Virus record (IMG/VR): IMGVR_UViG_3300022748_000029
Location: 1 to 36,256 of that record
Source: a virus
Reading direction: 5' to 3' (one strand)
DNA length: 36,256 nucleotides
Shown here piece by piece: positions 9,972-36,256 of the stretch. How positions within the stretch are numbered: the stretch's first letter is position 1; each line of letters opens with the position of its first letter. The notes under the pieces are model-generated. The model saw only the letters and a list, made by a program, of their open reading frames with translations. It had not been told where the DNA came from and made no database searches. The position numbers and the translations under genes were made by a program.

Positions 9972-9973
9972 TA

Positions 9974-10552
9974 TTACCCCCATTGTTCAGCCATAGCATC
10001 GGCTATGCCTTGAAAAGTTTTTGCTCTGGCTTTTTGTCTATTTTTTCCACCTTTGTTAAACCAGTTTCCAGCAATTTTAGTGGACTCTCTTTGAGCAACA
10101 ATGTTTGTCGGTATCAAATTTGGCAATCCTTTTAACCACAAACAAGTTCTTTTTTGAAATGGATGTCCATATTCATACGGCTGAATTATTTGGTTATATT
10201 TAGGAAGTTGAAATATTGTTGATGGAATAGGATTTTCAACTGCTATCAATGGAATATTTGCATTAAACAAAGTCATAAAAAAATCTTTTGCTTCCATGCC
10301 TTTTAAAAGTCTATTTTCATTCAATACGCCTTTAGGATAAAGATGAACAGCTCCAGCATTAGTAAGATAGGTGCAAGGCGGATGAGCAATCATCAAATCC
10401 CAGCCATCGTTAATAATATCTAAAACATTACCTTGATAATGATTACCTGGTATGTCGGTAGGCTCTAAATCACAAGACATTGCATAATGTCCTTTAGCAG
10501 CAAACGCTTCTCTAACAACACCGCTATATTCGCAAGCGATTAAAACTCTCAT
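9974..10552 (-). CDS. C5-cytosine-methyltransferase-like protein
   Basis: 192 aa from ATG 10552 (ATGA overlap with the exonuclease gene). It has an N-terminal SAM-binding-like strand-loop (VLIACEYSGVVREAF), a motif IV-like HPPCTYL with the Pro-Cys of C5-methyltransferases, and an AVENPIPS segment resembling the ENV motif. It is about half the size of a complete C5 enzyme, and the C-terminal half lacks an obvious target-recognition region or QRR motif. It may methylate by a reduced design, modify something else, or act as a decoy. Position between exonuclease and helicase suggests protection or marking of phage DNA. Confidence 0.7.
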   Translation of the reverse strand: MRVLIACEYSGVVREAFAAKGHYAMSCDLEPTDIPGNHYQGNVLDIINDGWDLMIAHPPCTYLTNAGAVHLYPKGVLNENRLLKGMEAKDFFMTLFNANIPLIAVENPIPSTIFQLPKYNQIIQPYEYGHPFQKRTCLWLKGLPNLIPTNIVAQRESTKIAGNWFNKGGKNRQKARAKTFQGIADAMAEQWG

Positions 10553-11370
10553 GACAACTTCCAATACTCAGTGGTAGCGCCTTGGTACTTGCTAAGGTCG
10601 GCATGTGGGATTAAATCCTTAACCACTTTGCTGTATGAGATAGCGCCAGCTTTAACAATCTTGGTCAGCTTGTGTCCGCTGATAATAGCGTTCTCACCGC
10701 CTGCCTCAGCTACAATCTTTTCAAGCAATTCTTTTTTATATTCCTCAAGGCGTTTAATCTGGTCTACTACTTGGAAATAATCATCGACCAATGGTGATTC
10801 AAAATCATTTAATGGTTCATCACGAATAGCCATGTATTCATCCCAAAACGCTTTTAATATTGGCGCATTGAGATTAATCCAGTCTATATCAAAATAAACA
10901 TGTTCAAGTTTATGTCCATGTGCAGACCATTGGTAAAAAGCACAACGTGTACGGCCAGTGCATAAAAGTTGGATTTGTATCTGGGCGTAATAATGATGTT
11001 GCTCGTTTATGGATTTAAATTCACCGCCATCACGCAAGCTGTACGGGCATTTAATTTCAATAATCCCATCTTCACCAATAAGACCATCTGGGCTTGCGCC
11101 TAACCAATCTTCATAAGTAAAAAAACCGCACTTATCGACTGCTCTATATTCAAGAACGTAATCGGCTAACGCCAGAGGCTCATGCGTCACGCCATAATCT
11201 GTAGCAATATTGCCTGTAAATTCTGACGGCAATCCTTGGTAATCACGCACCATTTTACGCATAACATCCTGGCGCTTCATGTGCGGTGATAATCCTAATA
11301 TTGCACCAACACTTGACGCTGTGACCAATCCCTTACGGGCGTTAAACCATTCTTCTGTTCTTTGTTCCAT
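10549..11370 (-). CDS. YqaJ-like viral recombinase (lambda-exo-type exonuclease)
   Basis: 273 aa. RTEEWFNARKGLVTASSVGAI opens the YqaJ fold; H63-E64, D95 (GASPDGLIG) and the E105-x-K107 pair (IIEIKCPY) form the PD-(D/E)xK active site. Family knowledge: 5'-3' resection of dsDNA ends to give 3' overhangs for annealing. It is followed by helicase and methyltransferase-like genes and preceded by DUF669 and an AAA ATPase, the classical partner set for recombination-dependent replication. Residues 180-220 contain a helix-rich insertion (IKRLEEYKKELLEKIV) that could mediate oligomerisation. Confidence 0.9.
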   Translation of the reverse strand: MEQRTEEWFNARKGLVTASSVGAILGLSPHMKRQDVMRKMVRDYQGLPSEFTGNIATDYGVTHEPLALADYVLEYRAVDKCGFFTYEDWLGASPDGLIGEDGIIEIKCPYSLRDGGEFKSINEQHHYYAQIQIQLLCTGRTRCAFYQWSAHGHKLEHVYFDIDWINLNAPILKAFWDEYMAIRDEPLNDFESPLVDDYFQVVDQIKRLEEYKKELLEKIVAEAGGENAIISGHKLTKIVKAGAISYSKVVKDLIPHADLSKYQGATTEYWKLS

Positions 11371-11885: not shown

Positions 11886-12644
11886 TTAAGCTCCTAATGT
11901 TGGAATAAAATTGACTAATGGGTTTTCGCCATTAATCACGGTTAAATCTTCGGTGATGCCGAATCTGTTTTTTGAAATGTTGGCGGCTGTCGCATAAGTC
12001 ACCAGCAAACGAGTGCCATCTGAAAACGCTTTCTTACGCTCGCCATCGCCCTGGGTAAATGTTTCAAGTTTTAAAAAGCCCACAAGGTCAACATTATCAA
12101 TGTAGTGGCTAACGGATTTCTTCTGCATACGAATGTTATAACGTGTGTATGGGTCGGCATCCGGCAGTTCAATAGTTTCTGTTTCAGCGTGCGCGATAAA
12201 CACAATATGCATCCCGCGCTTTTCATTCAACAAACCTGCGGCCTTACGCACACGGCCATGATAGGCGGACAACGCTTGAAATCCTGCACCATAACCGCCT
12301 AACGCTTGGGCTATGGATTTTGGTTTTTTAGGGTCTGTGTCAACAATGTGGTTGCTGAATAAAGTATCCAGTTGAGTCACACTATCCAGAACCAGCGTTT
12401 TATAATCGTGTTCCTCTTTAATAAGAGCTGTAAGCTGTTCCCATAATTGGTCAACACTGGTCAACAGTGGTAGTGCATCTGGACGATTAGCTAGTGGTAT
12501 CGCCTGTAATCCATCCTCTGCGCGGATAAATATAGGCTTTGGGAATGTGGCTGCCAGACTGGTTTTACCCAGACCTGCATCACCTGTTATGGTCGCAATG
12601 ACCGGACGGTCTTGCGGTTTTTCAATAGAGCTTAGTATGCTCAT
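11886..12644 (-). CDS. RecA-like AAA ATPase (Sak4-type recombinase)
   Basis: 252 aa from ATG 12644, which follows GAGGAGA; upstream in-frame codons lie in the promoter. Walker A GDAGLGKT at 21-28, Walker B KTLVLDSVTQLD near 100, and a later FIAHAETE strand typical of the phage AAA_24/Sak4 group. Such RecA-related minimal ATPases promote strand annealing together with an SSB, here the adjacent DUF669 protein. It is the first gene of the leftward operon and therefore probably expressed earliest and most strongly. Confidence 0.85.
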   Translation of the reverse strand: MSILSSIEKPQDRPVIATITGDAGLGKTSLAATFPKPIFIRAEDGLQAIPLANRPDALPLLTSVDQLWEQLTALIKEEHDYKTLVLDSVTQLDTLFSNHIVDTDPKKPKSIAQALGGYGAGFQALSAYHGRVRKAAGLLNEKRGMHIVFIAHAETETIELPDADPYTRYNIRMQKKSVSHYIDNVDLVGFLKLETFTQGDGERKKAFSDGTRLLVTYATAANISKNRFGITEDLTVINGENPLVNFIPTLGA

Positions 12645-12678
12645 GGTCTTCTCCTCATTGGGGTTAAAAATCTCTTTC

Positions 12679-12697
12679 TGGTTGCGTATTCTAACCA
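12679..12697. promoter_or_regulatory. Operator-like dyad TGGTT-N9-AACCA
   Basis: A perfect 5-bp inverted repeat with a 9-bp centre. It overlaps the -35 of the rightward and the -10 of the leftward promoter, the expected place for a dimeric regulator that controls both. The adjacent small HTH protein is the obvious candidate binder. Confidence 0.5.
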
Positions 12698-12710
12698 CTT
12701 AAATTATTAT
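12682..12710 (+). promoter_or_regulatory. Rightward promoter for the HTH-primase genes
   Basis: TTGCGT (12682-12687) and TATTAT (12705-12710), 17 bp apart, upstream of the HTH gene at 12743. It overlaps the leftward promoter in antiparallel, so the two probably cannot be occupied by polymerase at the same time. Confidence 0.5.
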
Positions 12711-21165: not shown

Positions 21166-22095
21166 ATGGAAAATGAAGAAATACTAGACGACTCTAGTGT
21201 TGCTGAAGAACAGCCAAGCGACACAAGGGATATTGTTGAAAAGGCAATGACTGAGCATGAAACTGCTCAAGAAGAAGTAAGCAATCCTGTACAGCCTGAA
21301 CCTGTACAAGATGAGCAGCCTAAGCGTGACCCGTGGAAATCTTGGAAGAAAGAAGCGGCCGAGGAAATGTCAAAGCTGCCTGATAATGTTCAAAAATACA
21401 TTATTGAGCGACAAGACCAGTTTCACAAAGGTTTAGAGCAATATAAAGAAGCGGCTAATTATGCTAAGACTATAGATAAGTCAATCGCTCCTTACAAAGA
21501 ATACCTAAGCCAATTAGGTGTAACGCCTGAAGTCGCGTTTCCTAATTTGCTGAAAACCGAACGCACATTGCGAATCGGTAGCCCACAAGAAAAAGTGGAG
21601 ATGTTTCAAAAGCTGGCGCATGATTACGGAATCGACCTTGGGGCATTAGCCAATATCCCATACGATGCAAATCTTGCACAGTTGAAAGCCCAAAAGGAAT
21701 GGCTAGAAAGCCAGCTCCAAGCCTCACAAGACTTTAAACAAAGCCATGAGGATGCCCAATTACAATCTGTTTTAGATGATTTTGGGTCACAGCACGAGTT
21801 TTTTGATGATGTACGTTTGCAGATGGCAGATTTGCTCGACAGCGGCCTTGCAACAGACTTATCAGACGCTTATGCCAAAGCTATTCGATTAAATGATGAT
21901 GTTTTTGCTAAAGCACAAGCCAAACAGCAAGCCAACAGCAAAACAGCACAATTATCGAAAGCAAATCAAGCTGCACAAGCAGCCAAACAAGCAGCAGTTC
22001 AAGTGAAAGGTTCACCTGTTGGCGTAAAAAACCAAGCAGCGCCTAAATCAACTGAAGATGCTGTGCGTATGGCTTTTCTGGCGCACGGACTTTAA
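21166..22095 (+). CDS. Capsid scaffold protein
   Basis: 309 aa. Acidic, low-complexity N-terminus (EEILDDSSVAEEQPSDTRDI), a long helical middle with Gln/Lys/Ala (KGLEQYKEAANYAKTI), and a basic, Ala/Gln-rich C-terminus (AKAQAKQQANSKTAQLSKAN) that would contact the coat. This is the composition of phage scaffolding proteins, which nucleate procapsid assembly and exit before maturation. It lies directly before the capsid gene except for an inserted endonuclease gene on the other strand, whose stop codon overlaps its own in a TTAA. Confidence 0.8.
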   Translation: MENEEILDDSSVAEEQPSDTRDIVEKAMTEHETAQEEVSNPVQPEPVQDEQPKRDPWKSWKKEAAEEMSKLPDNVQKYIIERQDQFHKGLEQYKEAANYAKTIDKSIAPYKEYLSQLGVTPEVAFPNLLKTERTLRIGSPQEKVEMFQKLAHDYGIDLGALANIPYDANLAQLKAQKEWLESQLQASQDFKQSHEDAQLQSVLDDFGSQHEFFDDVRLQMADLLDSGLATDLSDAYAKAIRLNDDVFAKAQAKQQANSKTAQLSKANQAAQAAKQAAVQVKGSPVGVKNQAAPKSTEDAVRMAFLAHGL

Positions 22096-22709
22096 GTTGT
22101 AAGGGCTTTTATTGGGTCCCAATTATAGGTATAGATTCTAGCTCTAATGGTGCGGTGATTTAAATTTAATTCTCTGCACCAATCAGAAACTGATTGAGTC
22201 TTGCCATTCATTGTGATTTGTTTAACATTTTTTCTGTTGTTGGCTTGTTGAAAAACATCAGCCCAACGACAATTTGAAGGTTCATAATTGCCAGAGCTAT
22301 TAATTCTGTCAATTGTATAGTTGGGTGGGCATTTGCCCATATCAGCTAAAAAATTTTCAAAACTAGATAGCCATCTGTCGCAAACGGTTATTCCTAATGC
22401 GCCATATCGCTTATAATCTGGTTTAGAAGGTAAATAGCAACGGGTTTTCATGTTGTGCCAAATTGAATATTCTCGCGACCGAGCATTATGTTTAGCATGA
22501 CCATGTTTTAAATTAAGTTTTGCCATAAATTCAGATTTTGAACAACCGCATGACTTAATTAAACCTTTGCGAAGTTCATACCCAGGCACTTGTGTTGTTT
22601 TTCCGCATGAACAGCTACACAACCAACGTGCTTGCCCCGTTGCCGGAACGCGGGATAGAACTGTTAGCTTGCCAAAAACTTGGCCTGTAATATCTATGAG
22701 TGTAGGCAT
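22092..22709 (-). CDS. Free-standing HNH homing endonuclease (AP2/HNH phage type)
   Basis: 205 aa. Layout: N-terminal Cys-rich zinc ribbons (CSCSCGKTTQ, SCGC), then GHAKHNARSREYSIWHNMKT, the nuclease core YGALGITVCDRW and TIDRINSSGNYEPSNCRWAD typical of this phage nuclease group, and a C-terminal NUMOD-like DNA-binding segment (VSDWCRELNLNHRTIRARI). Such enzymes cut related phage genomes lacking the gene and spread by repair. It sits between scaffold and capsid genes in reverse orientation, the only minus-strand gene in the rightward arc. No Shine-Dalgarno is visible and a hairpin lies 8 bases upstream, so expression is probably low. Confidence 0.85.
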   Translation of the reverse strand: MPTLIDITGQVFGKLTVLSRVPATGQARWLCSCSCGKTTQVPGYELRKGLIKSCGCSKSEFMAKLNLKHGHAKHNARSREYSIWHNMKTRCYLPSKPDYKRYGALGITVCDRWLSSFENFLADMGKCPPNYTIDRINSSGNYEPSNCRWADVFQQANNRKNVKQITMNGKTQSVSDWCRELNLNHRTIRARIYTYNWDPIKALTT

Positions 22710-24881: not shown

Positions 24882-25790
24882 ATGGCAACCTTACTTCAAA
24901 ATGTTCAAAATGTTTGTTTAGAATTAGGGTTGCCGTCACCCAATGCGGTGGCAACATCTACTGACCCGCAAATACTGCAAATGCAGGCGCTTTTGAATCG
25001 CGCTGGTGACATATTATCAACCGAACGCGACTGGCAAGTATTAGCTTCTGAGTATCGCTTTGAAACGGTTTATTATACCTACACAGGCGATGTAACAAAC
25101 GGATCAACAACCATCACCAATTTAAGCTCTGTAGTCGGTTTAAGCACCGATTTCATGGCTACTGGCACTGGCATTCAGCAAGACTCGTTTTTAACGTCTG
25201 TGGGCGTTTCTAGTGCCGAGATGTCTATACCATCCACGCAAACAGCCACAGGCATAACGATTACATTTGGCCAAGCTAAATACTCAATGCCGTCTGACTA
25301 TGCTCGTATTGTTAATAAAACCCAATACAACAAGTCTAACCGTTGGTCAATTATCGGCCCTAAAGATGCTCAGGAATGGCAATGGCTTAAGGCATCGTAT
25401 GTAACCACTGGCCCACGGATGCGTTTTCGTATCATGGGTGATAAATTTACTTTATGGCCTATGCCTTCCAGTACGTTGGTCATGGGTTTTGAATATGTTT
25501 CCAATGCGTGGGTAGTTGGCGCTGATGGCACATTAAAAACCAGCGCCACAAACGATTCAGATACGTTTAGATTCCCTGACAGACTGTTGGTATTAGGCAC
25601 AAAGCTTAAGTTATTCGAAATTAAAGGATTTGATACGACAGCATTGGTTCAAGATTACACCAGAGAGCTGGAAAAGTGGAAGGCATCCGAATCCGGTGCT
25701 GATACGTTGTCGCTCGCACCACGCTATCCAAATCTGCTTCTAACTCAGAACAATATCCCGGACACCGGATACGGAAACGCAACATCTTAA
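24882..25790 (+). CDS. SU10-type head-tail adaptor protein
   Basis: 302 aa. The N-terminus VQNVCLELGLPSPNAVATST then LLNRAGDILSTERDWQVLAS is the helical bundle of the SU10-type adaptor that docks under the portal. The middle has Thr/Ser-rich strands and YSMPSDYARIVNKTQYN, the C-terminal half ends in DRLLVLGTKLKLFEIKGFDT, all as in this family. It joins portal and short tail. The gene is followed by the ADP-ribosyltransferase-like gene after 35 bases. Confidence 0.8.
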   Translation: MATLLQNVQNVCLELGLPSPNAVATSTDPQILQMQALLNRAGDILSTERDWQVLASEYRFETVYYTYTGDVTNGSTTITNLSSVVGLSTDFMATGTGIQQDSFLTSVGVSSAEMSIPSTQTATGITITFGQAKYSMPSDYARIVNKTQYNKSNRWSIIGPKDAQEWQWLKASYVTTGPRMRFRIMGDKFTLWPMPSSTLVMGFEYVSNAWVVGADGTLKTSATNDSDTFRFPDRLLVLGTKLKLFEIKGFDTTALVQDYTRELEKWKASESGADTLSLAPRYPNLLLTQNNIPDTGYGNATS

Positions 25791-25825
25791 GGTTAGGGTA
25801 TTCAGAAACCTATTGGAGTTAATTA

Positions 25826-26938
25826 GTGGACATTAGCAGACTGGCAGACAAGTTACGTTCTCAAAACTTTGGTGCAAATGACAGCACAATTTTAAGTGCA
25901 ATCAATCATCCTTTGACAGCGGCTCAAAAAGGCGCAGATTGGTTCGCTGGTCAAGTCAATCGAGCGGCCAATATTCCTGAGCAATACGACAATCCAAATC
26001 CATTAGCAGGTTATACGCCTGAACAACAAGTTGGTGGTGCTTTGAATCTTGCTGGATTAGCAATGACTGGGCCAGCTCCATTTGGCCCAAAAGGTTCTGG
26101 TGGTACGTTGGGAGCGATTCCTGTTTCACATGGGTCGCCTCATGGCCCATTTAAAGAATTCGATTTATCAGAATTAGGAACTGGCGCTGGCGCTCAAGCG
26201 TATGGGCATGGCATATATTTTGGCGAGGGGTACAATTCGCCTGTTGCGATGAGATATGCTCCAAGAAATGAAAAGCTAGAAAATAAATTGCAAGATTTGT
26301 ACGACATTGCAGAAAAACGCAACCAATATCCATCTATGGAGGTTTATGAGCAATATATGCTAAATAAAGCGCCTGAAGATGTTGAAAAATATTTAGCGGA
26401 AGTTTTGCCTGATTATTCCAAATCAGAACAAATGGCAATGAAACAAGCCCATGAATTGGCTAAAAAAGCATATCAAGGTCAAAAAGGTTCTTACTTATAC
26501 AATGCTGACTTGAAATGGACAGACCCAGCAAAAGAAGCTGAAATGCCTATGTCAGAGGAACATTTTTTGCATTGGGATAAACCTTTGCATGAACAATCTG
26601 ATTATGTAAAAAAAGCTTTATATTCGATGCCATTGATAACGGATAATTTAACTGCAAAATTGTTAAATGGTGAACAAGGCTCAGATATTTATAATGCTTT
26701 AATAAATGCGACAGAGCTTGGTAAATTACCAAAAACTAGTGAACAATTTGGCGTTAAAGGTTCGGCAGAAACAGCTTCTAACTATTTAAACTCAATTGGA
26801 ATACCTGGCATTAGATATTTTGATCCAGAACACGGAAGCGGAAAAAGCTTGCAGAATTTTGTAACTTTTAATCCTAAAACAGCCGATATTTTGTCTATAA
26901 ATAGCAAAAAAATAGCCAACAAACTTAGAGGCCAATAA
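25826..26938 (+). CDS. ADP-ribosyltransferase-like protein (ART-PolyVal type) in the tail operon
   Basis: 370 aa from GTG 25826 with TTGGAG seven bases upstream. Residues 1-95 resemble N-termini of phage virion proteins (LNLAGLAMTGPAPFGPKGSG). From about 98: SHGSPHGPFKEFDLSELGTG (H102-G-S motif), then AGAQAYGHGIYFGEGY with Y126 and the Y131-F-x-E pattern, and near the C-terminus GIPGIRYFD and NFVTFNPKTADILSIN. These are the successive signatures of ADP-ribosyltransferases found in phage polyvalent proteins, which transfer ADP-ribose from NAD+ to host proteins. The third catalytic acid is not obvious. Its place between adaptor and nozzle genes suggests packaging in, or ejection from, the virion like T4 Alt; this is inferred. 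Confidence 0.75.
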   Translation: MDISRLADKLRSQNFGANDSTILSAINHPLTAAQKGADWFAGQVNRAANIPEQYDNPNPLAGYTPEQQVGGALNLAGLAMTGPAPFGPKGSGGTLGAIPVSHGSPHGPFKEFDLSELGTGAGAQAYGHGIYFGEGYNSPVAMRYAPRNEKLENKLQDLYDIAEKRNQYPSMEVYEQYMLNKAPEDVEKYLAEVLPDYSKSEQMAMKQAHELAKKAYQGQKGSYLYNADLKWTDPAKEAEMPMSEEHFLHWDKPLHEQSDYVKKALYSMPLITDNLTAKLLNGEQGSDIYNALINATELGKLPKTSEQFGVKGSAETASNYLNSIGIPGIRYFDPEHGSGKSLQNFVTFNPKTADILSINSKKIANKLRGQ

Positions 26939-28564
26939 ATGCTCAGACCAAAACGCCAATCATCATCAACCATTACGGTAACAGCACCTATTGGCGGCTG
27001 GAACGCTGTTACACAATTGGCGGCTATGTCACCTAATGAAGCGGTGATTATAGACAATTGGTTTTGCTTGCCGACTGAGTTGCAGGTTCGCAAAGGTTAT
27101 ACGGAATGGGCTACAGGCTATACAGGTAACATTCAATCATTTATCAATTATTCTCCAGCAAGCGGAACAATCAAGTTTTTTGCGGCTGCCGACAACAATG
27201 GCGATTGTGCGCTGTACGACGTATCTTCGCAAAATATCAGCGTCACCAACTTGGTAACAGAATCCGGTGATTTCATTACCACCGAGGCTGGCGTTCTTTT
27301 AGATACAAACAAAGCGGCTGTTGTTTACGGATTAACCAGTGCTAAGTTTAGATTTGCACAGTTTGCAAACAGCGGTGGTCATTTCACAATTGCCATCAAT
27401 GACACCGATCCATTATTGCTTTATGACGGTACAACTTGGAATTCAGTCACTAGCACAAGTTCTCCTTATGCGATAACAGGTGTTGATACATCCGCATTAA
27501 ATGATGTTATTTTGCATAAACGCAGAGTTTGGTTTGCTGAGCAAGACACTTTAAATGGCTGGTATCTTGATACCGATGCTGTGGCTGGAACAGCGCACAA
27601 GTTTGATTTTGGCCCGTTATTTTCTCAAGGCGGCTCAATTGCTAAATTAACCACTTGGACACTTGACGCTGGCTGGGGGATGGATGATTACTTAGTCGTC
27701 TTAACCACGAAAGGCGAGGTTGCTGTTTATAAAGGTGTGAATCCTGCCGACCCTGCCGACTGGTCATTGCAAGGTGTTTATTATATCGGTTCGCCTGTTG
27801 GGTTCTTCCCGACTTGCAAATACGGTGGCGATGCCTTGTTATTAAACAAAGACGGATTAATTCCTTTGTCGCAATGTTTAATGTCATCTCGGGTATCTAC
27901 TCGAATCTCAATCACCAACAAGATTCAATCAAAAGTTACTCAAGCAACAACTGATTATGCCGGCAATTATGGTTGGCAAGTAATTTTGTTTCCACCGCAA
28001 AATATGTTGATGATTAACGTACCAACATCGAATACAACATCAGACCAATATGTGATGAATACTATTAGCGGGGCATGGTCAAGATTTGTTGATGTTAATG
28101 CCACCACATGGACATTTATCAATGAAGAAATGTATTTCGGAAATGCTGGCGCTGTTTATAAGTTCTGGGACGGACAAAACGACAATGGGTCTGTTGTAAC
28201 AACTGATTTGTTGCCAGCTTTTAGTTCGTTTGGAAGTCAGTCGCAAATCAAACGCTGGTCAATGGCTAGAGTATCAATGGGCTATGACATTACATTTTCA
28301 TTTTCATCGCAATTAAGTCTTGATTTTGATTTAGTATCTCAGCCGCCACAACCTTACAATACATTGTCATCAACCGCAGGTGTTTGGGATGTTGGCCATT
28401 GGGATAACGCGCTATATGGCGGGAATATTATCCCATTCGCTCAATGGCAAATGGCTTCAGGGATGGGGCATTATGGTTCTTATAGAATTAGAACATCGAG
28501 CAAAACAAGTGATATTCGATATTATGCAACCGACTATGTTTTGGAAGCGGGTGGAGTTCTTTAA
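26939..28564 (+). CDS. Tail nozzle-like structural protein
   Basis: 541 aa, starting immediately after the previous stop. The N-terminus TVTAPIGGWNAVTQLAAMSP then EAVIIDNWFCLPTELQVRKG is a signature of the beta-propeller or nozzle protein of short tails (T7 gp12- or P22 gp10-like role). The body is beta-rich with many Trp/Gly turns (VWFAEQDTLNGWYLD, then MFYF-like strands EMYFGNAGAVYKFWDG) and repeated SPVG/TTW elements. It would form the tail tube below the adaptor. Followed by a small gene with one-base overlap. Confidence 0.75.
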   Translation: MLRPKRQSSSTITVTAPIGGWNAVTQLAAMSPNEAVIIDNWFCLPTELQVRKGYTEWATGYTGNIQSFINYSPASGTIKFFAAADNNGDCALYDVSSQNISVTNLVTESGDFITTEAGVLLDTNKAAVVYGLTSAKFRFAQFANSGGHFTIAINDTDPLLLYDGTTWNSVTSTSSPYAITGVDTSALNDVILHKRRVWFAEQDTLNGWYLDTDAVAGTAHKFDFGPLFSQGGSIAKLTTWTLDAGWGMDDYLVVLTTKGEVAVYKGVNPADPADWSLQGVYYIGSPVGFFPTCKYGGDALLLNKDGLIPLSQCLMSSRVSTRISITNKIQSKVTQATTDYAGNYGWQVILFPPQNMLMINVPTSNTTSDQYVMNTISGAWSRFVDVNATTWTFINEEMYFGNAGAVYKFWDGQNDNGSVVTTDLLPAFSSFGSQSQIKRWSMARVSMGYDITFSFSSQLSLDFDLVSQPPQPYNTLSSTAGVWDVGHWDNALYGGNIIPFAQWQMASGMGHYGSYRIRTSSKTSDIRYYATDYVLEAGGVL

Positions 28565-28719
28565 TGCCTAGTACAAGTGAAAAACAACATCTTTTTATGG
28601 AAGCCGTAGCGCACAATCCCGAATTCGCTAAAAAAGCGGGTGTTCCGCAATCTGTTGGTCAGGATTTCAACCAAGCAGATAAACGCAAACGATTAGCAAA
28701 ACAATTAAGAAAACAATGA
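28564..28719 (+). CDS. Small DUF3008-like virion-region protein
   Basis: 51 aa, starting in a one-base overlap with the nozzle-gene stop and ending in an ATGA overlap with the next start. MPSTSEKQHLFMEAVAHNPE followed by FAKKAGVPQSVGQDF matches a common small phage protein (DUF3008-like), and the tail DKRKRLAKQLRKQ is strongly basic. It may be a minor virion or DNA-associated protein; no function is known. Confidence 0.65.
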   Translation: MPSTSEKQHLFMEAVAHNPEFAKKAGVPQSVGQDFNQADKRKRLAKQLRKQ

Positions 28720-29204
28720 ACAAAGAAGAATACACGCATGTGCCACCTTGGGGCGAGCCATCTTATGATAAAATGCTGGAAATTCTGGCTGGAAATCAAG
28801 ATGCCGTTAGAATGATGCAAGTTATCGGCAAATGGTCGCACATTTATGATGATTTGATAGACAAAGACAAAGAAGTGTCGAAAGATGAAATCCATTGGGT
28901 AATGTGGGAGTTATTGGTTAATTTACAGCTTAATCCATTTTATACTGCAAATAGCATAATTTTAACTCCTTTAGTAATGAGTGGAATAATTAACTGGTTT
29001 GCAGCTAATGAAATTGAAAAAATTGGAAATTTAGAAGAATTAAGAATATCGCACAGCATTAGATATTCGATTTGCGATGTTGGGATGGTATCAATGATAT
29101 TAGCTGGCGGCCTAGAGCATGCTAAAAAATATGCTCGTGTTGCGCGATTACTTTTCCAATGCGACACATGGGAACACTATAAATCTGAACATTTAAAAGG
29201 GTAA
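28716..29204 (+). CDS. Helical tail-region protein of unknown function
   Basis: 162 aa, largely alpha-helical with two hydrophobic stretches (IILTPLVMSGIINWFAAN; VGMVSMILAGG) that could be amphipathic or membrane-facing. The segment KWSHIYDDLIDKDKEVSKDE recalls the Asp-rich motif of prenyl synthases, but without a second motif this is probably coincidental. Relatives seem to occur in podovirus-like tail operons. A role in the ejection machinery is possible by position only. Confidence 0.5.
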   Translation: MNKEEYTHVPPWGEPSYDKMLEILAGNQDAVRMMQVIGKWSHIYDDLIDKDKEVSKDEIHWVMWELLVNLQLNPFYTANSIILTPLVMSGIINWFAANEIEKIGNLEELRISHSIRYSICDVGMVSMILAGGLEHAKKYARVARLLFQCDTWEHYKSEHLKG

Positions 29205-29208
29205 AAAT

Positions 29209-30903
29209 ATGTGCGACACCGGCCCATCAGCACCACCAGCACCAAATTACGCAGCAGCGGCTAGAGAAACCGCTCAGGGTAACGCAAATGCAGCTCGTAT
29301 TGCCCAGTATGGCAATATGGTCAATCAAGTTACGCCGCAAGGTACTGTCACCTATAACCCGTCAACTCGAGGTTATATGGATGAAAAAGGCAATACAATA
29401 TCAATAGATGCTTATAACGCATTAAAAAATAAAAAAGGTTATTCGCCTTTAGAACAGTGGACACAATCGGTCACTTTATCGCCTGACCAACAAGCTTTAT
29501 ACGACCAATCTGTTGCAATGAACAAAGAGCTGGGCAATATTGCTCAGTCTGGTTTGGCGTATGTTAAAGATGCAATGGGCAATCCAATCAAGCCCAAATT
29601 TGATGTTGTTGGCAATGCTCCTACTACATTTAGTCAAATGACTTCTAATGTTGACAGGCCTGATTTACAGACAGAAGTTGGCGATGCTGGAAGAATTCAA
29701 CGGTCAGTAAATGATTACACTGGCGATGTACAACGTCAATCCGGTGCAAATGAACAGGCTAATGCCAATGTTTATCAGACATTAGGCCAATTACAAACAA
29801 GGGTGCAAAATCCTGAGTTATTAGCGCAAGACACCACAAACGCTTTGTACAAAGCGAACACACAGTATTTAGACCCGCAATTTGAGCAGGCACAATCTAA
29901 GCTAGAAAATCAATTGGCGAATCAAGGTATAACCAGAGGTTCTGAGGCATATAACAATGCCATGCAAAACTTTGGTAATCAAAAGCAACAAGCTTATGAA
30001 TCTGCAAGAAATCAAGCAATAGCGGGTGGTACACAAGCTGCACAAGGCATGTTTGGTATGAATCTTCAGGGCGGTCAATTTGCTAATCAAGCACTTGGTC
30101 AACAATTTGGCCAATCTGTTACACAACAAGAATTGGCTAATGCTGCGGCTAATCAAAACAATCAATTGGCGCTGGCCAATCAGCAAGCCTACAACCAAGC
30201 GATTGCTCAGCAATATGGTCAAGGATTGGGCGCTGCTAATTTTGCTAATCAAGCACAGCAACAACAATACGACCAGTTGCTTAATAATGCCAATTTCAGA
30301 AATGCTGCACTACAAGGCATGTTCGGTATGGGCATGCAAAACGCTGCTCTTAACAATCAAGTTCAAAACCAAGCATTTGCACAAGGTTTATCAAACGCTC
30401 AATTGCAAAATGCGGCTTCTCAGCAAGATATTTCGCAACAACAAACCTTACAGCAAGCGCCCATCAATATGCTTAATGCCGTTAGAACTGGTCAGCAATT
30501 ACAGGCAGCACAAATACCGCAAGTCGGTGTTTCTCAACCGGGTCAATTGGCTAACTGGCAAGGGGCTGACATGTTAGGCGCGGCACAAGCTCAAGGACAA
30601 TATAACCAAGGTATTTATAACGCACAATCTGCGGCTGATGCACAAAAGGTAAGTGCGGGAATTGGGGCTATTGGTTCAATTGGCGGTGGTTTTGCTGCGA
30701 AGTCAGACATTCGACTCAAGAAAAACATTGTGCGATTGGGTACTCATAAAACATTGGGCATCGGCCTTTATAAGTGGGATTATATCTGGGATTATCCTGG
30801 TTACGGTGTCATGGCTCAAGAACTTGAACAAGTTATGCCTGAAGCTGTGTTTACGATGCCTGATGGCTATAAAGCTGTTAATTACTCAATGCTGGGGGCG
30901 TAA
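29209..30903 (+). CDS. Gln/Ala/Asn-rich virion protein with C-terminal S74-type chaperone domain
   Basis: 564 aa. The N-terminus (MCDTGPSAPPAPNYAAAARE) and the long Gln/Ala/Asn-rich middle (many QQ, NQ and AN repeats, about residues 150-460) fit an ejection protein. From about 499 to the end is an S74 intramolecular chaperone: SDIRLKKNIVRLG with its conserved Ser, then LYKWDYIWD, GVMAQELEQVMPEAV and a YKAVNYSMLGA finish. Such domains help trimerise fibre-like proteins and cut themselves off. Having one on a Gln-rich internal-type protein is unusual. It directly precedes three more ejection-type genes. Confidence 0.75.
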   Translation: MCDTGPSAPPAPNYAAAARETAQGNANAARIAQYGNMVNQVTPQGTVTYNPSTRGYMDEKGNTISIDAYNALKNKKGYSPLEQWTQSVTLSPDQQALYDQSVAMNKELGNIAQSGLAYVKDAMGNPIKPKFDVVGNAPTTFSQMTSNVDRPDLQTEVGDAGRIQRSVNDYTGDVQRQSGANEQANANVYQTLGQLQTRVQNPELLAQDTTNALYKANTQYLDPQFEQAQSKLENQLANQGITRGSEAYNNAMQNFGNQKQQAYESARNQAIAGGTQAAQGMFGMNLQGGQFANQALGQQFGQSVTQQELANAAANQNNQLALANQQAYNQAIAQQYGQGLGAANFANQAQQQQYDQLLNNANFRNAALQGMFGMGMQNAALNNQVQNQAFAQGLSNAQLQNAASQQDISQQQTLQQAPINMLNAVRTGQQLQAAQIPQVGVSQPGQLANWQGADMLGAAQAQGQYNQGIYNAQSAADAQKVSAGIGAIGSIGGGFAAKSDIRLKKNIVRLGTHKTLGIGLYKWDYIWDYPGYGVMAQELEQVMPEAVFTMPDGYKAVNYSMLGA

Positions 30904-31304
30904 TGACACCATTCGACCAATATAACCAAAGCTCTGGACAACCTTATTTGCGTCCGGCAACAGGATACATTGACGAATCACAAAGAGCCGCACTTGCTGC
31001 TGCTTTGCGTCAAGGGCCAATGCAAGCTCAGCAACGCTCAAGTAAAAGCCCTATTTCTCCAGAAATGGCTAATAAATTTGCTGATTGGGCTTTAGGATTA
31101 GGAAAAGAAGGCTTGCCAAATAGCTCACAAAATGTCGGTGTAAATGCTGTTACACCTGATTTTCAATCTGGCAATTATGGCGCACCTACCATGAACATGA
31201 CTGGTGCAGGGTCTATTACACCTAACTTTAATTCAACTAATAATTTTCAAACGCCTATGATGCAACAGGGGTTCAATCCTTCTATGTTTAAGGGGATTTA
31301 TTAA
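30903..31304 (+). CDS. Small Gln/Asn-rich virion-region protein
   Basis: 133 aa, with one-base overlaps with both neighbours. Pro/Gln/Asn-rich low-complexity sequence (YNQSSGQPYLRPATGYIDES; TNNFQTPMMQQGFNPSMF) and one helical piece (MANKFADWALGLGKEGL). Composition resembles linkers of ejection proteins. I do not recognise a family. Probably a structural or ejected accessory protein of the following gene product. Confidence 0.5.
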   Translation: MTPFDQYNQSSGQPYLRPATGYIDESQRAALAAALRQGPMQAQQRSSKSPISPEMANKFADWALGLGKEGLPNSSQNVGVNAVTPDFQSGNYGAPTMNMTGAGSITPNFNSTNNFQTPMMQQGFNPSMFKGIY

Positions 31305-32497
31305 TGGCTAGTTTATATGACGAACGTGTTTTAGGCGCACAACAACGGGCTGAGTTTGCTCGCAAGCTTCGAGAATCTTCCAATCAGCCTGCTGGCCAAA
31401 TGGTATCCGGTTGGTATGTGCCTAACACGGGTGGCGCTGTTGTAGATGCCTTGCGTAATATTATGGGCGCTTATCAAGAGCGTGAAGCTAAAGATGAATT
31501 AAAAAACATCCAAAGGGAAAAACTGCAATCCACTATTCAAGCTATGAATCAAGCTGGAATTCAAGCGCCTGAATCAATGCTGAAAGAAGCTGGCACACCT
31601 GAAGTCAAACCCGGCATGTGGGACAGATTGACAGCGACTTTAAGAGGCGAAGAGGCTAAAGGAACACCAGCGCAACCTTATCAGCAAAATGTTGCTCAAA
31701 ACGCAACTCCAGAGCAAAGAGAAGCTGGCTTGATGAATTTGCTGCAAGTGAATCCTGAGGTGGCCTCTGGCGCTATTGGCTTATATAACGCATCAACTAA
31801 TCGAGCTTTAACTAAAGCTGAAAAAGAATATCAACATGCAAAAGATGTTCAAGAGCAAGAATGGAAACAAAAAACATACGAAGAAGGTAGGGCAGACCGT
31901 CTTGCTAGAGAAACTGCTGATAGAGATTTAAGAGCTGCTATTGCTGGAAATAAACAGCCACAATCCCAGTATGAATATAAGGAAATAAACGGACAGCCAT
32001 TTAGTTTTAATCGGTTTACAAATCAATTAAGTCCAGTTCAATCACCTGAATCCGCTGGATTCCCTGTAAAAAAATTGAGTCCTGAGCAGCAAAAAATACA
32101 AGATGCTAATGACGCAATTGAAATACTTAAGGAAGCTGCCCCATTAGTTAATAAATCAACATCAAGCGGCATTGGAGCTGGAATTGATTATGCCGCGTCT
32201 TTAATCGGGAAAAGCACAGATGGCGCCGACGTTGCGGCACAGCTTAAGGTTTTAGGTGGTTCACTTGTTGCCAAAATGCCGAAAATGTCTGGGCCTCAAT
32301 CAGATAAAGATGTTCTGCTTTATAAAGAAATGGCAGGAAGAATCGGAGACCCAACAGTTCCAGCATCGCAAAAAATAGCTGCCATGAATTCAATAAACCA
32401 ATTGCAATCTAAATACGCTGGTGTTGAACCGGCACAATTGCAATTTGATGAAAAACCCGCGCAAGGTTCATGGAAAATAACTCCAATGGGACAATAA
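31304..32497 (+). CDS. Helical ejection-type virion protein
   Basis: 397 aa. Largely helical and Gln/Ala/Lys-rich (ALRNIMGAYQEREAKDELKN; YEEGRADRLARETADRDL), with a short glycine-rich part (SSGIGAGIDYAASLIGKSTD) and a conserved-looking C-terminal unit (KKLSPEQQKIQDANDAIEIL; KMPKMSGPQSDKDVLLYKEM). The composition and location after the Gln-rich S74 protein fit internal virion proteins that form a channel across the host envelope. No enzymatic motif seen. Confidence 0.6.
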   Translation: MASLYDERVLGAQQRAEFARKLRESSNQPAGQMVSGWYVPNTGGAVVDALRNIMGAYQEREAKDELKNIQREKLQSTIQAMNQAGIQAPESMLKEAGTPEVKPGMWDRLTATLRGEEAKGTPAQPYQQNVAQNATPEQREAGLMNLLQVNPEVASGAIGLYNASTNRALTKAEKEYQHAKDVQEQEWKQKTYEEGRADRLARETADRDLRAAIAGNKQPQSQYEYKEINGQPFSFNRFTNQLSPVQSPESAGFPVKKLSPEQQKIQDANDAIEILKEAAPLVNKSTSSGIGAGIDYAASLIGKSTDGADVAAQLKVLGGSLVAKMPKMSGPQSDKDVLLYKEMAGRIGDPTVPASQKIAAMNSINQLQSKYAGVEPAQLQFDEKPAQGSWKITPMGQ

Positions 32498-32498
32498 A

Positions 32499-34109
32499 AT
32501 GCCTAGTTTTGAAATTACAGCACCAGACGGAAGAAAATATGCAATTGATGCACCTGAAGGCGCTACGCAGGAACAGGCGTTAGAGCATTTTAAGGCTAAT
32601 TGGAAGCCAGAAACCGATACGTCTGCATTAAAAAGATTTGGCCAAGGATTATTAGAGCCAGTAGAAGGTCTTGGACAAATAGCGGCTCAAGGCATTGCTG
32701 CGGCTGCTCCAAATACGGAAGCTGGCAGATTTGCTCAACAACATTTGGAATTTGGCAAACAACAAAGACTAGCGCAAGAAGCTGCCAATCAAGCCGCTAA
32801 TGTAGGAACTAATTATGCAGGAATGGCGGGCAATGTATTAAGCCCAGTTAATTTAATGACTGGTGCTGCAATGAAAGGCGCTCCATTGATTTCTCAAGGG
32901 GTGCGTGGCGGCGCTGTTAGCGGCCTGTTATCACCAAATAATGCAGAGGATAATTTTGCTGAAGAAAAAGCCAAACAAATTGGCATGGGCGCTTTAACTG
33001 GAGCAGCAACTGGATTAGGCTCTGATCTTGCAACCGGATTTATTAAAGGCGCTACACCTTCAAAATATGTGGAATTATTGCGAAAAGAAGGAGTTACGCC
33101 AACAGCTGGACAAATATTAGGCGGTGCATGGCAACGAGCTGAAAATAAATTAGAAAGCATTCCTATTCTTGGTGATTTTATTACTAAAGGACATAAAGAA
33201 GGATACGAAGAATACAACAAAGCTATTTTAAATAGAGCATTAAAGCCAATAGGCGAAACCACAGATAAAGTGGGTCGTGAAGGTGTTCAAGAAGTAGAAA
33301 GCAAGTTGAACCAATATTATGACAAAATATTGCCAGAACTTGGATTTTTACCTGACGATGAATTTGTTCAAAAAATGTCAACTATTAAACAAATGGTTGG
33401 TCAATTGCCTAGAAACGAACAAAAGTCATACGCCAATATAATGCAACGTATTGAAAGCCAAGCAAGTCCAAATGGTGGAATGGTTGGCGAAACATTTAAA
33501 GAAGTTGAATCGCTTTTAAATACTGAGGCAAAAAGATTTGGAAAATCTACTGATGCTTATCAACAAAGCCTTGGCGATGCGTTAAGCGAAACTTTAAAAA
33601 CATATCGAGAAGTTTTGCCCAGATCAAATCCTAATTATGCCGATGAATTAACAAAAGCTAATACAGGGTGGGCAAATTATGCTCGTATTCGTGATGCAGC
33701 CAATAGAACATCGGCAGGCGCTAATGAAGGCATATTTTCACCAGCACAATTAGCTCAAGCAGTGAGATCGCAAGACAAAACAGTTGGCAAAGGGGCGTCC
33801 GCTAAAGGTAAAGCTTTGATGCAAGATATTGCTGAAGCCGGTACAAATGTATTATCGCCAAAATATCCAGATTCGGGAACAGCTGGTCGAGCTGCTTTAG
33901 ATTTGGCAGTGGGCGGCGCAGGCTATGCGTTTAATCCTTTAATCCCTGCTGGACTTGCCGCAGCAGGATTGCCATTTGTTGGCGCTGGTAGAAAAGCTAC
34001 TGGAAATCTGTTATTAAACAGACCTGAAGAAGCAAGAAAACTTGCTGATATTTTAAGACAAGGCGCAGCGTATGGTGTTACTGCATCGCCTTACATGGTT
34101 AATCAATAG
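32499..34109 (+). CDS. Large ejection-type virion protein
   Basis: 536 aa. The N-terminus SFEITAPDGRKYAIDAPEGA followed by TQEQALEHFKANW is a small module repeatedly found at the start of podovirus ejection or internal proteins. The middle is helical with glycine-rich amphipathic stretches (GGAVSGLLSP; AAKGAPL-type) that could insert into membranes, then charged helices (EGVQEVESKLNQYYDKILPE; EFVQKMSTIKQMVGQLPRNE). The C-terminus has RAALDLAVGGAGYAFNP and a likely membrane-active tail. No muralytic domain recognised. Likely one of the proteins ejected before DNA. Confidence 0.6.
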   Translation: MPSFEITAPDGRKYAIDAPEGATQEQALEHFKANWKPETDTSALKRFGQGLLEPVEGLGQIAAQGIAAAAPNTEAGRFAQQHLEFGKQQRLAQEAANQAANVGTNYAGMAGNVLSPVNLMTGAAMKGAPLISQGVRGGAVSGLLSPNNAEDNFAEEKAKQIGMGALTGAATGLGSDLATGFIKGATPSKYVELLRKEGVTPTAGQILGGAWQRAENKLESIPILGDFITKGHKEGYEEYNKAILNRALKPIGETTDKVGREGVQEVESKLNQYYDKILPELGFLPDDEFVQKMSTIKQMVGQLPRNEQKSYANIMQRIESQASPNGGMVGETFKEVESLLNTEAKRFGKSTDAYQQSLGDALSETLKTYREVLPRSNPNYADELTKANTGWANYARIRDAANRTSAGANEGIFSPAQLAQAVRSQDKTVGKGASAKGKALMQDIAEAGTNVLSPKYPDSGTAGRAALDLAVGGAGYAFNPLIPAGLAAAGLPFVGAGRKATGNLLLNRPEEARKLADILRQGAAYGVTASPYMVNQ

Positions 34110-34120
34110 GGGAATAACAA

Positions 34121-34840
34121 ATGCCATTTAACGGTTCAGGAACTTATACATTGCCTGCTGGAAATCCTGTTGTCACTGGGACTACCATATCTTCAACAAC
34201 GACTAACAATACAAATTCAGATATTGCAACAGCATTGACGAATTGCGTTACTAGAGATGGACAGTCTACGCCATCGGCTGATTTGCCGATGAATAGCCAT
34301 AAATTAACAGGATTATCCGCTGGAACATCTAATGGCGATTCTGTGCGCTGGGATCAGGTACAATATGTCTTAAATATAGCTAGCGCAGGAACGTCAGGGC
34401 AAGTTTTGACTTCTGGTGGTACTGGTGCGCCAACATGGACTAATGCAGCAACAGGAGATGTCACTTTAACTGGCACTCAAACCTTAACAAATAAAACTAT
34501 TGAAGCCGGTATATTCACTAATGGCTACACTGAAGAAACTGTAACAGCTAATACATCTACAGCTTATACAATTGATTTGGCTAACGGCTCTGTTCAGGTG
34601 TTGACCCTGACAGGCAGCTGCACGTTTACATTTCCAACTGCTACTGCTGGCAAATCATTTATGTTATTGCTTAAACAGGATGCCACAGGTTCTCGTACAG
34701 TTACTTGGCCTGCTTCTGTAAAATGGCCAGCAAGTACAGCTCCTACAATCACAAGCACCGCAAGCAAAGGTGATAAGTATGTGTTTACAGGTGATGGCAC
34801 ATACTGGTGGGGAAGCGTAGCTGGTCAAAACTATTTATAG
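34121..34840 (+). CDS. Tail spike/fibre-like protein
   Basis: 239 aa, with GGGG upstream of the ATG. N-terminus NGSGTYTLPAGNPVVTGTTI, then LPMNSHKLTGLSAGTSNGDS, a common phage tail-fibre adaptor pattern, followed by SGQVLTSGGTGAPTW and TGTQTLTNKTIE. The C-terminal part is beta-rich (TFTFPTATAGKSFMLLLK; YVFTGDGTYWWGSV). It probably is the base of the appendage whose distal protein is encoded next, eight bases downstream. Receptor specificity is likelier in the next gene. Confidence 0.65.
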   Translation: MPFNGSGTYTLPAGNPVVTGTTISSTTTNNTNSDIATALTNCVTRDGQSTPSADLPMNSHKLTGLSAGTSNGDSVRWDQVQYVLNIASAGTSGQVLTSGGTGAPTWTNAATGDVTLTGTQTLTNKTIEAGIFTNGYTEETVTANTSTAYTIDLANGSVQVLTLTGSCTFTFPTATAGKSFMLLLKQDATGSRTVTWPASVKWPASTAPTITSTASKGDKYVFTGDGTYWWGSVAGQNYL

Positions 34841-34848
34841 GGGTCAGT

Positions 34849-36256
34849 ATGTTTTCAAGTAACTCAACACAGGTTAGTTCAGAGGCTAATTACATCGAGG
34901 ATGTATTCTCTACTTATCTCTACACCGGCAACAGCTCTACCCAGACGATTAACAACGGCATTGACTTGGCTGGGAAAGGTGGGATGGTGTGGATAAAATC
35001 AAGAAGCGCGGCTACTACTAATCATCGGATATTTGATACAAATAGGGGCGTTGGGAATTCCATTAGCTCAAATTTAACAACTGCGCAAAGTTTTGCAACT
35101 TCTTCTTTGGATGGTTTTTTATCTTCTGGGTTTTCTATTCAAGGCTTTAACGGAGAAATAAACGATTCTGCGAGAACCTACGCCTCTTGGACATTCCGCA
35201 AGCAACCTAAGTTCTTTGATGTGGTGACTTGGACTGGTAACGGCGCTTCACAAAATATTAGCCATAATCTTGGTTCCCAACCCGGCATGGTTATAGTAAA
35301 ACGCACAAATGCAACTGAAGCGTGGGGTGTGGCGGTAAGACAATCTTCAACAACTTATGCTACGGGGCTTAGCTTAAATACTACGGATGCCGCCGTATAT
35401 CAGGGTGTAACAAGCTACAATACGTACTTTACGTCTACGTATTTTGATGCGTATCGAGTAATAAGCGCCGCTGGTGATAGAAACACTAGCGGGGCCACTT
35501 ATGTTGCCTACCTCTTCGCCCACAACGCAGGAGGCTTTGGCCTGACGGGTACGGACAATGTGATTTCGTGTGGGTCTTATACGGGTAATGGTTCTGCTTC
35601 CGGCCCGACTATTACACTTGGCTATGAACCACAATATCTGATGATTAAAAATGCTTCCGGCACAGGTAACTGGCAAATCATAGATAATATGCGTGGTATG
35701 CCTGTCGGTTCTGCTGACGCGGAACTACAAGCAAATTTATCTAATGCAGAATCATCTGCTGACTATGTTTCACCTAATGCTACTGGGTTTCAAATTGTAT
35801 CTACAAGCACTGAAGTAAACACAAGCGCTTCAACCTACATCTACCTCGCCATCCGCCGTGGCCCGATGCGAACGCCTACGAGTGGGACGCAGGTGTATGC
35901 GCCAACGCTGACGGTGGATACGACCGGTCAACAAATCAACACAGGGTTTCCTGTCGATTTGCAAATAGAAGCCTACCGACCAGGCGGCGGCAACAACTAC
36001 GTGTTTGATCGCCTGCGGGGGATTTCCACGAACAGCACTGAAGCCGGTATGGCGCTGTTTACAAACAGCACCGGAAGTGAGTCCGCGATTGCGTTTACTC
36101 GCTACTTCAACAACACAGGCTTTCAGCAGCCTAGCGGCTCTACGGTGGCTGGCGGCTATATCAACTGGAACTTCCGCCGCGCCCCCGGATTCTTTGACGT
36201 GGTTTGCTATACGGGGAACGGGGTTGCTGGGCGTACTGTTGCACACAGTCTTGGCT
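34849..36256 (+). CDS. Tail appendage protein with DUF7483-like repeats, 5' part (3' end cut by window edge)
   Basis: ATG 34849 after AGGGGTCAG; open to the window edge (469 codons visible). The first module (residues about 20-120) reads YLYTGNSSTQTINNGIDLAG, MVWIKSR, then WTFRKQP; the second starts FFDVVTWTGNGASQN and ends YVAYLFAH; the third starts GFGLTG and ends YLAIRRGP; then a GFPVD region leads to FRRAPGFFDVV of another module. Same repeat family as 3-1340 and continuous with it if the 127-bp repeat is a closure. That would give a 628-aa protein (1887 bases across the junction, in frame). Bases from about 35940 are clearly GC-richer. Probable receptor-binding tail protein. Confidence 0.75.
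   Translation, partial: MFSSNSTQVSSEANYIEDVFSTYLYTGNSSTQTINNGIDLAGKGGMVWIKSRSAATTNHRIFDTNRGVGNSISSNLTTAQSFATSSLDGFLSSGFSIQGFNGEINDSARTYASWTFRKQPKFFDVVTWTGNGASQNISHNLGSQPGMVIVKRTNATEAWGVAVRQSSTTYATGLSLNTTDAAVYQGVTSYNTYFTSTYFDAYRVISAAGDRNTSGATYVAYLFAHNAGGFGLTGTDNVISCGSYTGNGSASGPTITLGYEPQYLMIKNASGTGNWQIIDNMRGMPVGSADAELQANLSNAESSADYVSPNATGFQIVSTSTEVNTSASTYIYLAIRRGPMRTPTSGTQVYAPTLTVDTTGQQINTGFPVDLQIEAYRPGGGNNYVFDRLRGISTNSTEAGMALFTNSTGSESAIAFTRYFNNTGFQQPSGSTVAGGYINWNFRRAPGFFDVVCYTGNGVAGRTVAHSLG
35396..35522. repeat. 127-bp exact repeat of 1-127, right copy
   Basis: Same 127 bases as the window start, in frame inside the tail gene, followed by a diverging but homologous version of the bases found after position 127. 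Circularising here gives a unit length of 35,395 bp. Confidence 0.95.

Follow-up and report, generated by a model that had tools for sequence, protein, structure and literature searches.

The window analysed here, which is the whole 36,256-nucleotide stretch of the IMG/VR record IMGVR_UViG_3300022748_000029, very probably represents a 35,395-bp circle together with a 734-bp side branch. The branch would carry a second allele of a tail-fibre gene whose domains are apparently exchanged at conserved DNA islands.

The genome maps as a 35,395-bp circle

A sequence-only reading of the window had claimed that positions 1-127 are equal to positions 35396-35522. On re-checking, we found an exact match in the same frame, which stops at exactly 127 nt. 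Identity between the two copies is 95% when the comparison is extended to 201 nt and still 84% at 301 nt (E 1.5e-89), and the 127-bp match is therefore not a chance event. The left copy (1-127, + strand), with which the contig starts, covers the end of domain 2 (module M1) and the first 11 nt of the island that we call I2, and we refer to this 127-mer as V. The right copy (35396-35522, + strand) lies in its full gene context, preceded by codons 1-196 of a DUF7483 tail-fibre gene (34807-35395, + strand), a 5′ part that is common to both alleles in this assembly. The same reading had proposed that collinear homologous protein follows both copies, and both continuations are indeed open in one frame, with the peptides GTDNVISCGS, LGYEPQ, QIIDNMRG, AIRRGPM, GFPVD, RAPGF, and HxLG in common. 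There is no direct terminal repeat at the two contig ends; the second copy of V is separated from the right end by 734 bp.

Evidence for a circular map comes from another, independent contig, IMGVR_UViG_3300022747_000066 (11,370 bp; hereafter L004), which was found in an IMG/VR protein search with the right-end gene. L004 aligns to 25629-35522 and then continues unbroken into 128 onward, such that the join from 35522 to 128 is contained within one contig. In a global alignment, L004 and the window have 0 differences over 11,300 bp (25629-35522 plus 128-1533). The 3′ part of the gene at the left end of the window (allele A; 1-1340, + strand), when joined to 34807-35395, encodes a protein of 642 aa, and 642/642 residues are identical to those of the intact L004 ORF. 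In L004, this complete, single-copy tail-fibre gene is followed by the tail-fibre assembly gene, and its neighbours are those found in the window. Because L004 holds the join without differences, the genome maps as a 35,395-bp circle, which supports the earlier proposal of a circular or permuted genome of that length. Likewise, the single-copy gene in L004 favours the accompanying suggestion that the last 734 bases are a second allele of the tail segment. The circular map is compatible with virion DNA that is either circularly permuted or equipped with terminal repeats. The terminase is similar to those of Rhodoferax phage P26218 and of HTVC010P-type pelagiphages of 33.6-37 kb, a size range in line with a 35.4-kb genome.

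L004 is identical to the window until 1533 and diverges in its last few dozen bases (1534-1593), which suggests a further allele fork inside the tail-fibre assembly chaperone gene.

The forked gene encodes a DUF7483 tail-fibre protein

Both ends of the gene match the Pfam family PF24299 (DUF7483; 185.2 and 159.7 bits, with a cut-off of 27), and the gene's PHROGs match is phrog_24898, tail fiber protein; Pfam and PHROGs scans returned only DUF7483 and phrog_19943/24898. The adjoining gene (1349-1834, + strand; PF16778, phrog_4912) is a tail-fibre assembly chaperone gene, and the assignment as a phage tail-fibre gene thus has both a profile match and a neighbouring tail-fibre assembly gene behind it. 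The protein is a putative binder of the host surface or receptor.

An AlphaFold2 model of the L004 protein, made with 71 relatives, has a mean pLDDT of 85.8 and reads as a chain of six predicted beta-domains of ~90-110 residues each. The domains are joined by predicted strand-linker-strand hairpins at residues 124-131/137-143, 231-238/253-259, 336-343/357-362, 436-441/448-454, and 531-537/544-550. A search of solved folds gave no reliable match: the best Foldseek hit had an E of 1.8e-3, and the best VIA Z, 5.7, extended across 67 residues of a single domain and is likewise not reliable. The sole match in a PDB sequence search (E 0.095) is at chance level, and the nearest named predicted viral protein is itself a DUF7483 protein. 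A literature search on DUF7483 found the family not named and no function described.

In some relatives the full-length DUF7483 gene is present two or three times in direct tandem, as stop-to-stop frames set end to end (L027, 3-6287; L030, 5651-9757; L033, 5509-9900; L071, 9806-14029; L065, 7958-11809). Same-locus matches of 100% among relatives were dismissed as overlapping flanks rather than repeats.

Alleles A and B differ by whole domains of the tail fibre

The allele B branch (35523-36256, + strand) encodes alternative domains 3 and 4 (modules M2 and M3) as well as the beginning of domain 5. The two alleles are 100% identical until they split at position 128, which is 11 nt inside island I2; thereafter, nucleotide identity is 89% in I2, 55% in M2 (domain 3; 198-419 in allele A, + strand), 68% in island I3, and 49% in M3 (domain 4; 492-707 in allele A, + strand). 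This is the level of random pairs in the family, for which median identity is 0.55 in M2 and 0.43 in M3. Over 700 bp, the difference between A and B takes the form of whole-domain replacement with indels. A protein search with allele B found relatives of 71% identity at most and no second copy in IMG/VR, and an exact IMG/VR search with its last 49 bp gave no match. We propose that allele B would be the gene of co-occurring phages with other third and fourth domains.

A similar arrangement was seen in IMGVR_UViG_3300042383_000185 (35,325 bp), which has two tail-gene alleles, one at each end (L215 and L219). Similarity between these alleles is mostly 30-50% in modules M1-M4 and 85-100% in the C-terminal domain and the sequence after it, and another contig, L236, bridges both ends of the record. 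This separate case favours reading A and B as alleles.

The 127-bp repeat as a probable fork in the assembly graph

The exact 127-bp repeat is probably a single k-mer left where the assembly graph forks, with both the assembler and k being deduced. The largest k-mer in common use for such metagenome assemblies (metaSPAdes settings) is 127, and in a de Bruijn graph with k = 127, a fork leaves an exact 127-base repeat with diverged continuations. A precedent was found in another phage: the contig end of L041 is a 127-base exact match to L195, located at island I4, and the bases ahead of the match differ, while those following it are identical in both alleles. It is on this precedent, together with general knowledge of metaSPAdes, that the k = 127 reading is based; a literature search for a stated rule on k = 127 end repeats found none. 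The published account in PMC11443906 gives the reason why de Bruijn graphs fail to phase strain variants that are separated by more than k.

Under the graph reading, position 1 and position 35396 would be one site, namely a 127-base vertex in the single-copy DUF7483 gene at which two alleles fork. The contig would then be made up of a loop edge of 35,522 bases and, after it, the allele B edge; allele A (128-1340) would close the circle, and allele B (35523-36256) would have been appended by the assembler as a side branch. The contig's final 127 bases (36130-36256, + strand), which span allele B's island I4 and for which L041 is again the precedent, are probably a second graph vertex, with allele B ending where the alleles rejoin at I4. 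The layout resembles the k-length end repeats of circular contigs, in which one k-mer is repeated exactly at circle closure. It differs in that the assembly ran 734 bp into a second allele. The repeat consequently lies away from the right edge, and the circle would go unnoticed in a simple end-repeat test.

We also considered whether contig ends are enriched in the gene, using a sample of 58 island-matching contigs. Ends fell in the gene in 8/31 contigs of at least 8 kb against ~3.8 expected; however, the hazard profile was noisy and the comparison was set aside.

Other explanations for the second allele

The strongest competitor holds that allele B is a chimeric extension from an unrelated co-occurring phage that shares the end of M1, and that the backbone of the present phage exists without B. 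The continuation of B is no nearer to A than are random family members, B is absent from all other IMG/VR contigs, and modules circulate among unrelated phages, so that sharing V needs no common backbone. We nevertheless regard such an extension as rather unlikely, since 38 of the codons in V, all at 100% identity, belong to the poorly conserved M1 and genuine strain pairs with the same type of swap are found in other phage clusters. Even if B were chimeric, it would still be the product of the same module exchange.

It is less likely again, at a probability we would put well under that of a chimera, that two adjacent DUF7483 genes share V, with the contig broken between them and A and B on one molecule. 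Tandem genes, two or three in number, do occur in relatives (L027, L030, L033, L065, and L071), and the tandem model would yield an identical layout, with the upstream genes, N-terminal part, and V-B on one side and V-A and the chaperone gene on the other. L004, however, is identical over 11.3 kb and has one copy between the same neighbours. Moreover, a second tandem copy would place an N-terminal part of its own ahead of the left V, whereas V is the very first sequence of the contig. The comparable record 3300042383_000185 has both alleles leading into the same downstream sequence, which argues against tandem copies there.

The competing model of the sequence-only reading, one longer gene with a duplicated module, fares poorly, given the homologue lengths and the single copy in L004: duplication within one gene needs ~970 aa, and it is unlikely because the 134 complete homologues have a median length of 665 aa, with 875 aa or more in just 5. 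Finally, although diversity-generating retroelements and DNA-inversion switches are both known means of varying phage tail fibres, it is scarcely credible that either acts on this tail gene, as the A/B differences are whole-domain and not scattered adenine-directed changes, no reverse transcriptase was found among the scanned ORFs of at least 250 aa, no invertase was found in the ORFs scanned, and the window contains 0 inverted repeat pairs of at least 25 bp; the window shows no positive sign of either mechanism.

Interdomain hairpins coincide with conserved DNA islands

The interdomain hairpins are stretches of high DNA conservation. Four islands were delimited, all on the + strand: I1 (codons 121-143; 35167-35235), at the beta hairpin that joins domain 1 to domain 2, with 2.0-fold synonymous conservation; I2 (codons 236-262; 117-197), between domains 2 and 3, at 2.1-fold and with the A/B split inside it; I3 (codons 337-360; 420-491), between domains 3 and 4, at 2.1-fold; and I4 (codons 433-456; 708-779), between domains 4 and 5, at 1.7-fold. 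Median nucleotide identity is 0.67-0.78 in I1-I4 versus 0.43-0.55 in the modules.

The synonymous test used 79 sequences that had been fetched by protein similarity only, and its expectation was derived from codon usage. An earlier codon analysis that included loci with the exact island pattern was biased, and the protein-fetched loci alone gave the same result. The ratio of observed to expected agreement at 4-fold degenerate third bases was 2.02 for I1 (bootstrap interval 1.80-2.18), 2.09 for I2 (1.95-2.21), 2.08 for I3 (1.92-2.30), and 1.73 for I4 (1.55-1.91), compared with 1.1-1.5 outside the islands (1.17-1.30 in the modules, 1.34 in J5, and 1.14 in the C-terminal domain). J5 is as conserved as the islands at the protein level, yet its synonymous conservation is just 1.34. 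Because the islands exceed both the equally protein-conserved J5 and the conserved C-terminal domain, protein constraint alone is insufficient to account for them.

A 35-base stretch that crosses the point where A and B split, written with two wobble positions, is matched exactly at 58 places in IMG/VR; in deposited phage records, a DNA-level match was found in MW202710 only. One possible interpretation, which we offer tentatively, is that the islands are conserved as DNA crossover anchors and that unrelated aquatic phages share a pool of receptor-binding domains that are exchanged whole. The islands may be alike as a result either of frequent recombination or of selection as anchors.

Domains appear to be swapped across the family

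Pairwise identities of the two halves of one module are correlated (r 0.26-0.53; 0.08 for N), while those across an island to the next module are not (r -0.05 to 0.00). In the pairs L028/L063 and L040/L014, one module is 97-98% identical and both neighbouring modules are 41-62% identical. Within codons 110-470, 19/30 edges of shared blocks fall in islands versus 32% expected (p 3e-4, where p-values are indicative only, as gene pairs are non-independent), and 37/54 do so when all loci are counted. Conservation of the islands in all loci accounts for part of this placement, since it extends block edges into them, and the edge positions are blurred accordingly. Additional breakpoints, around codon 64 and at J5, lie in places with weaker synonymous conservation.

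In five other phage clusters, flanks that are 96-99.9% identical enclose swapped interiors, with edges mostly at islands. The flanks of L040 and L195, for example, match up to codon 64 and again from 449 onward, whereas L005 and L011 are 99.9% identical over 10.7 kb starting at codon 244. The A and B alleles of the window provide one more example of such a swap, and the exchange is apparently not specific to this phage but a family-wide swapping of domains at conserved islands.

We envisage that, in co-infecting phages, homologous recombination between islands would swap one or more whole domains, and that a crossover placed in an island would preserve both the reading frame and the packing of the hairpin. 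The genome encodes a YqaJ-type exonuclease (10549-11370, - strand; PF09588) and an AAA_24 ATPase (11886-12698, - strand; PF13479), a possible recombinase partner of the exonuclease, and these phage proteins may mediate the domain exchange. The swaps might, in turn, alter host range.

Other features of the genome

An HNH endonuclease gene (22092-22709, - strand; phrog_374) lies beside the major head gene. The segment around it is missing from a 97% identical sister contig (L103), which suggests that it was inserted or lost recently. A DNA methyltransferase gene (9974-10564, - strand; phrog_757) is absent in L103 as well, the alignment passing directly from 9973 to 10555. An imperfect 35-nt direct repeat (77%; 30079-30113 and 30241-30275) is found in a gene with a Peptidase_S74 C-terminal domain.

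Significance and comparison with known systems

The combination of a circle and an allele branch accounts for the odd end of the contig, and it indicates how public viral assemblies come to display alternative tail-fibre alleles, whose branches conceal circular genomes from end-repeat tests. The uncharacterised, widespread DUF7483 family gains a testable role as a modular tail fibre with domains exchanged at islands. If the swaps change host range, domain sequences in metagenomes could reveal host-range shifts. A literature search on pelagiphage tail-fibre hypervariability with recombination found no account of the DUF7483 system.

The closest parallel is gp38 of the T-even phages, in which, according to the summary in PMC12529663 of the work of Tetart, Desplats, and Krisch (1998), conserved glycine-rich motifs separate the hypervariable segments, and segments and specificity are exchanged when these motifs recombine (Tetart et al. 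1998). As far as that summary goes, both systems consist of a tail-fibre protein with conserved motifs and hypervariable segments that are exchanged at the motifs; in DUF7483 we found the alternation of motifs and hypervariable segments as well as recombination edges at the motifs. In contrast, DUF7483 is not a gp38 homologue by Pfam and PHROGs, and its units are six predicted beta-domains of ~100 aa that appear to be swapped whole. Its motifs are conserved at synonymous sites between phages that are otherwise ~50% identical.

A second parallel is provided by metaviromic islands (Mizuno et al. 2014, PMC3909814), in which the host-recognition genes of near-identical, co-occurring marine phages vary; tail fibres are among the variable genes, and the variation sometimes covers barely one protein domain. 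Those islands were recognized by read recruitment, and the main text of the paper does not contain the word recombination, whereas the present sequences directly display an alternative allele, islands of crossover, and domain units that reassort. The DUF7483 system thus appears to work like gp38 and would be seen as a metaviromic island.
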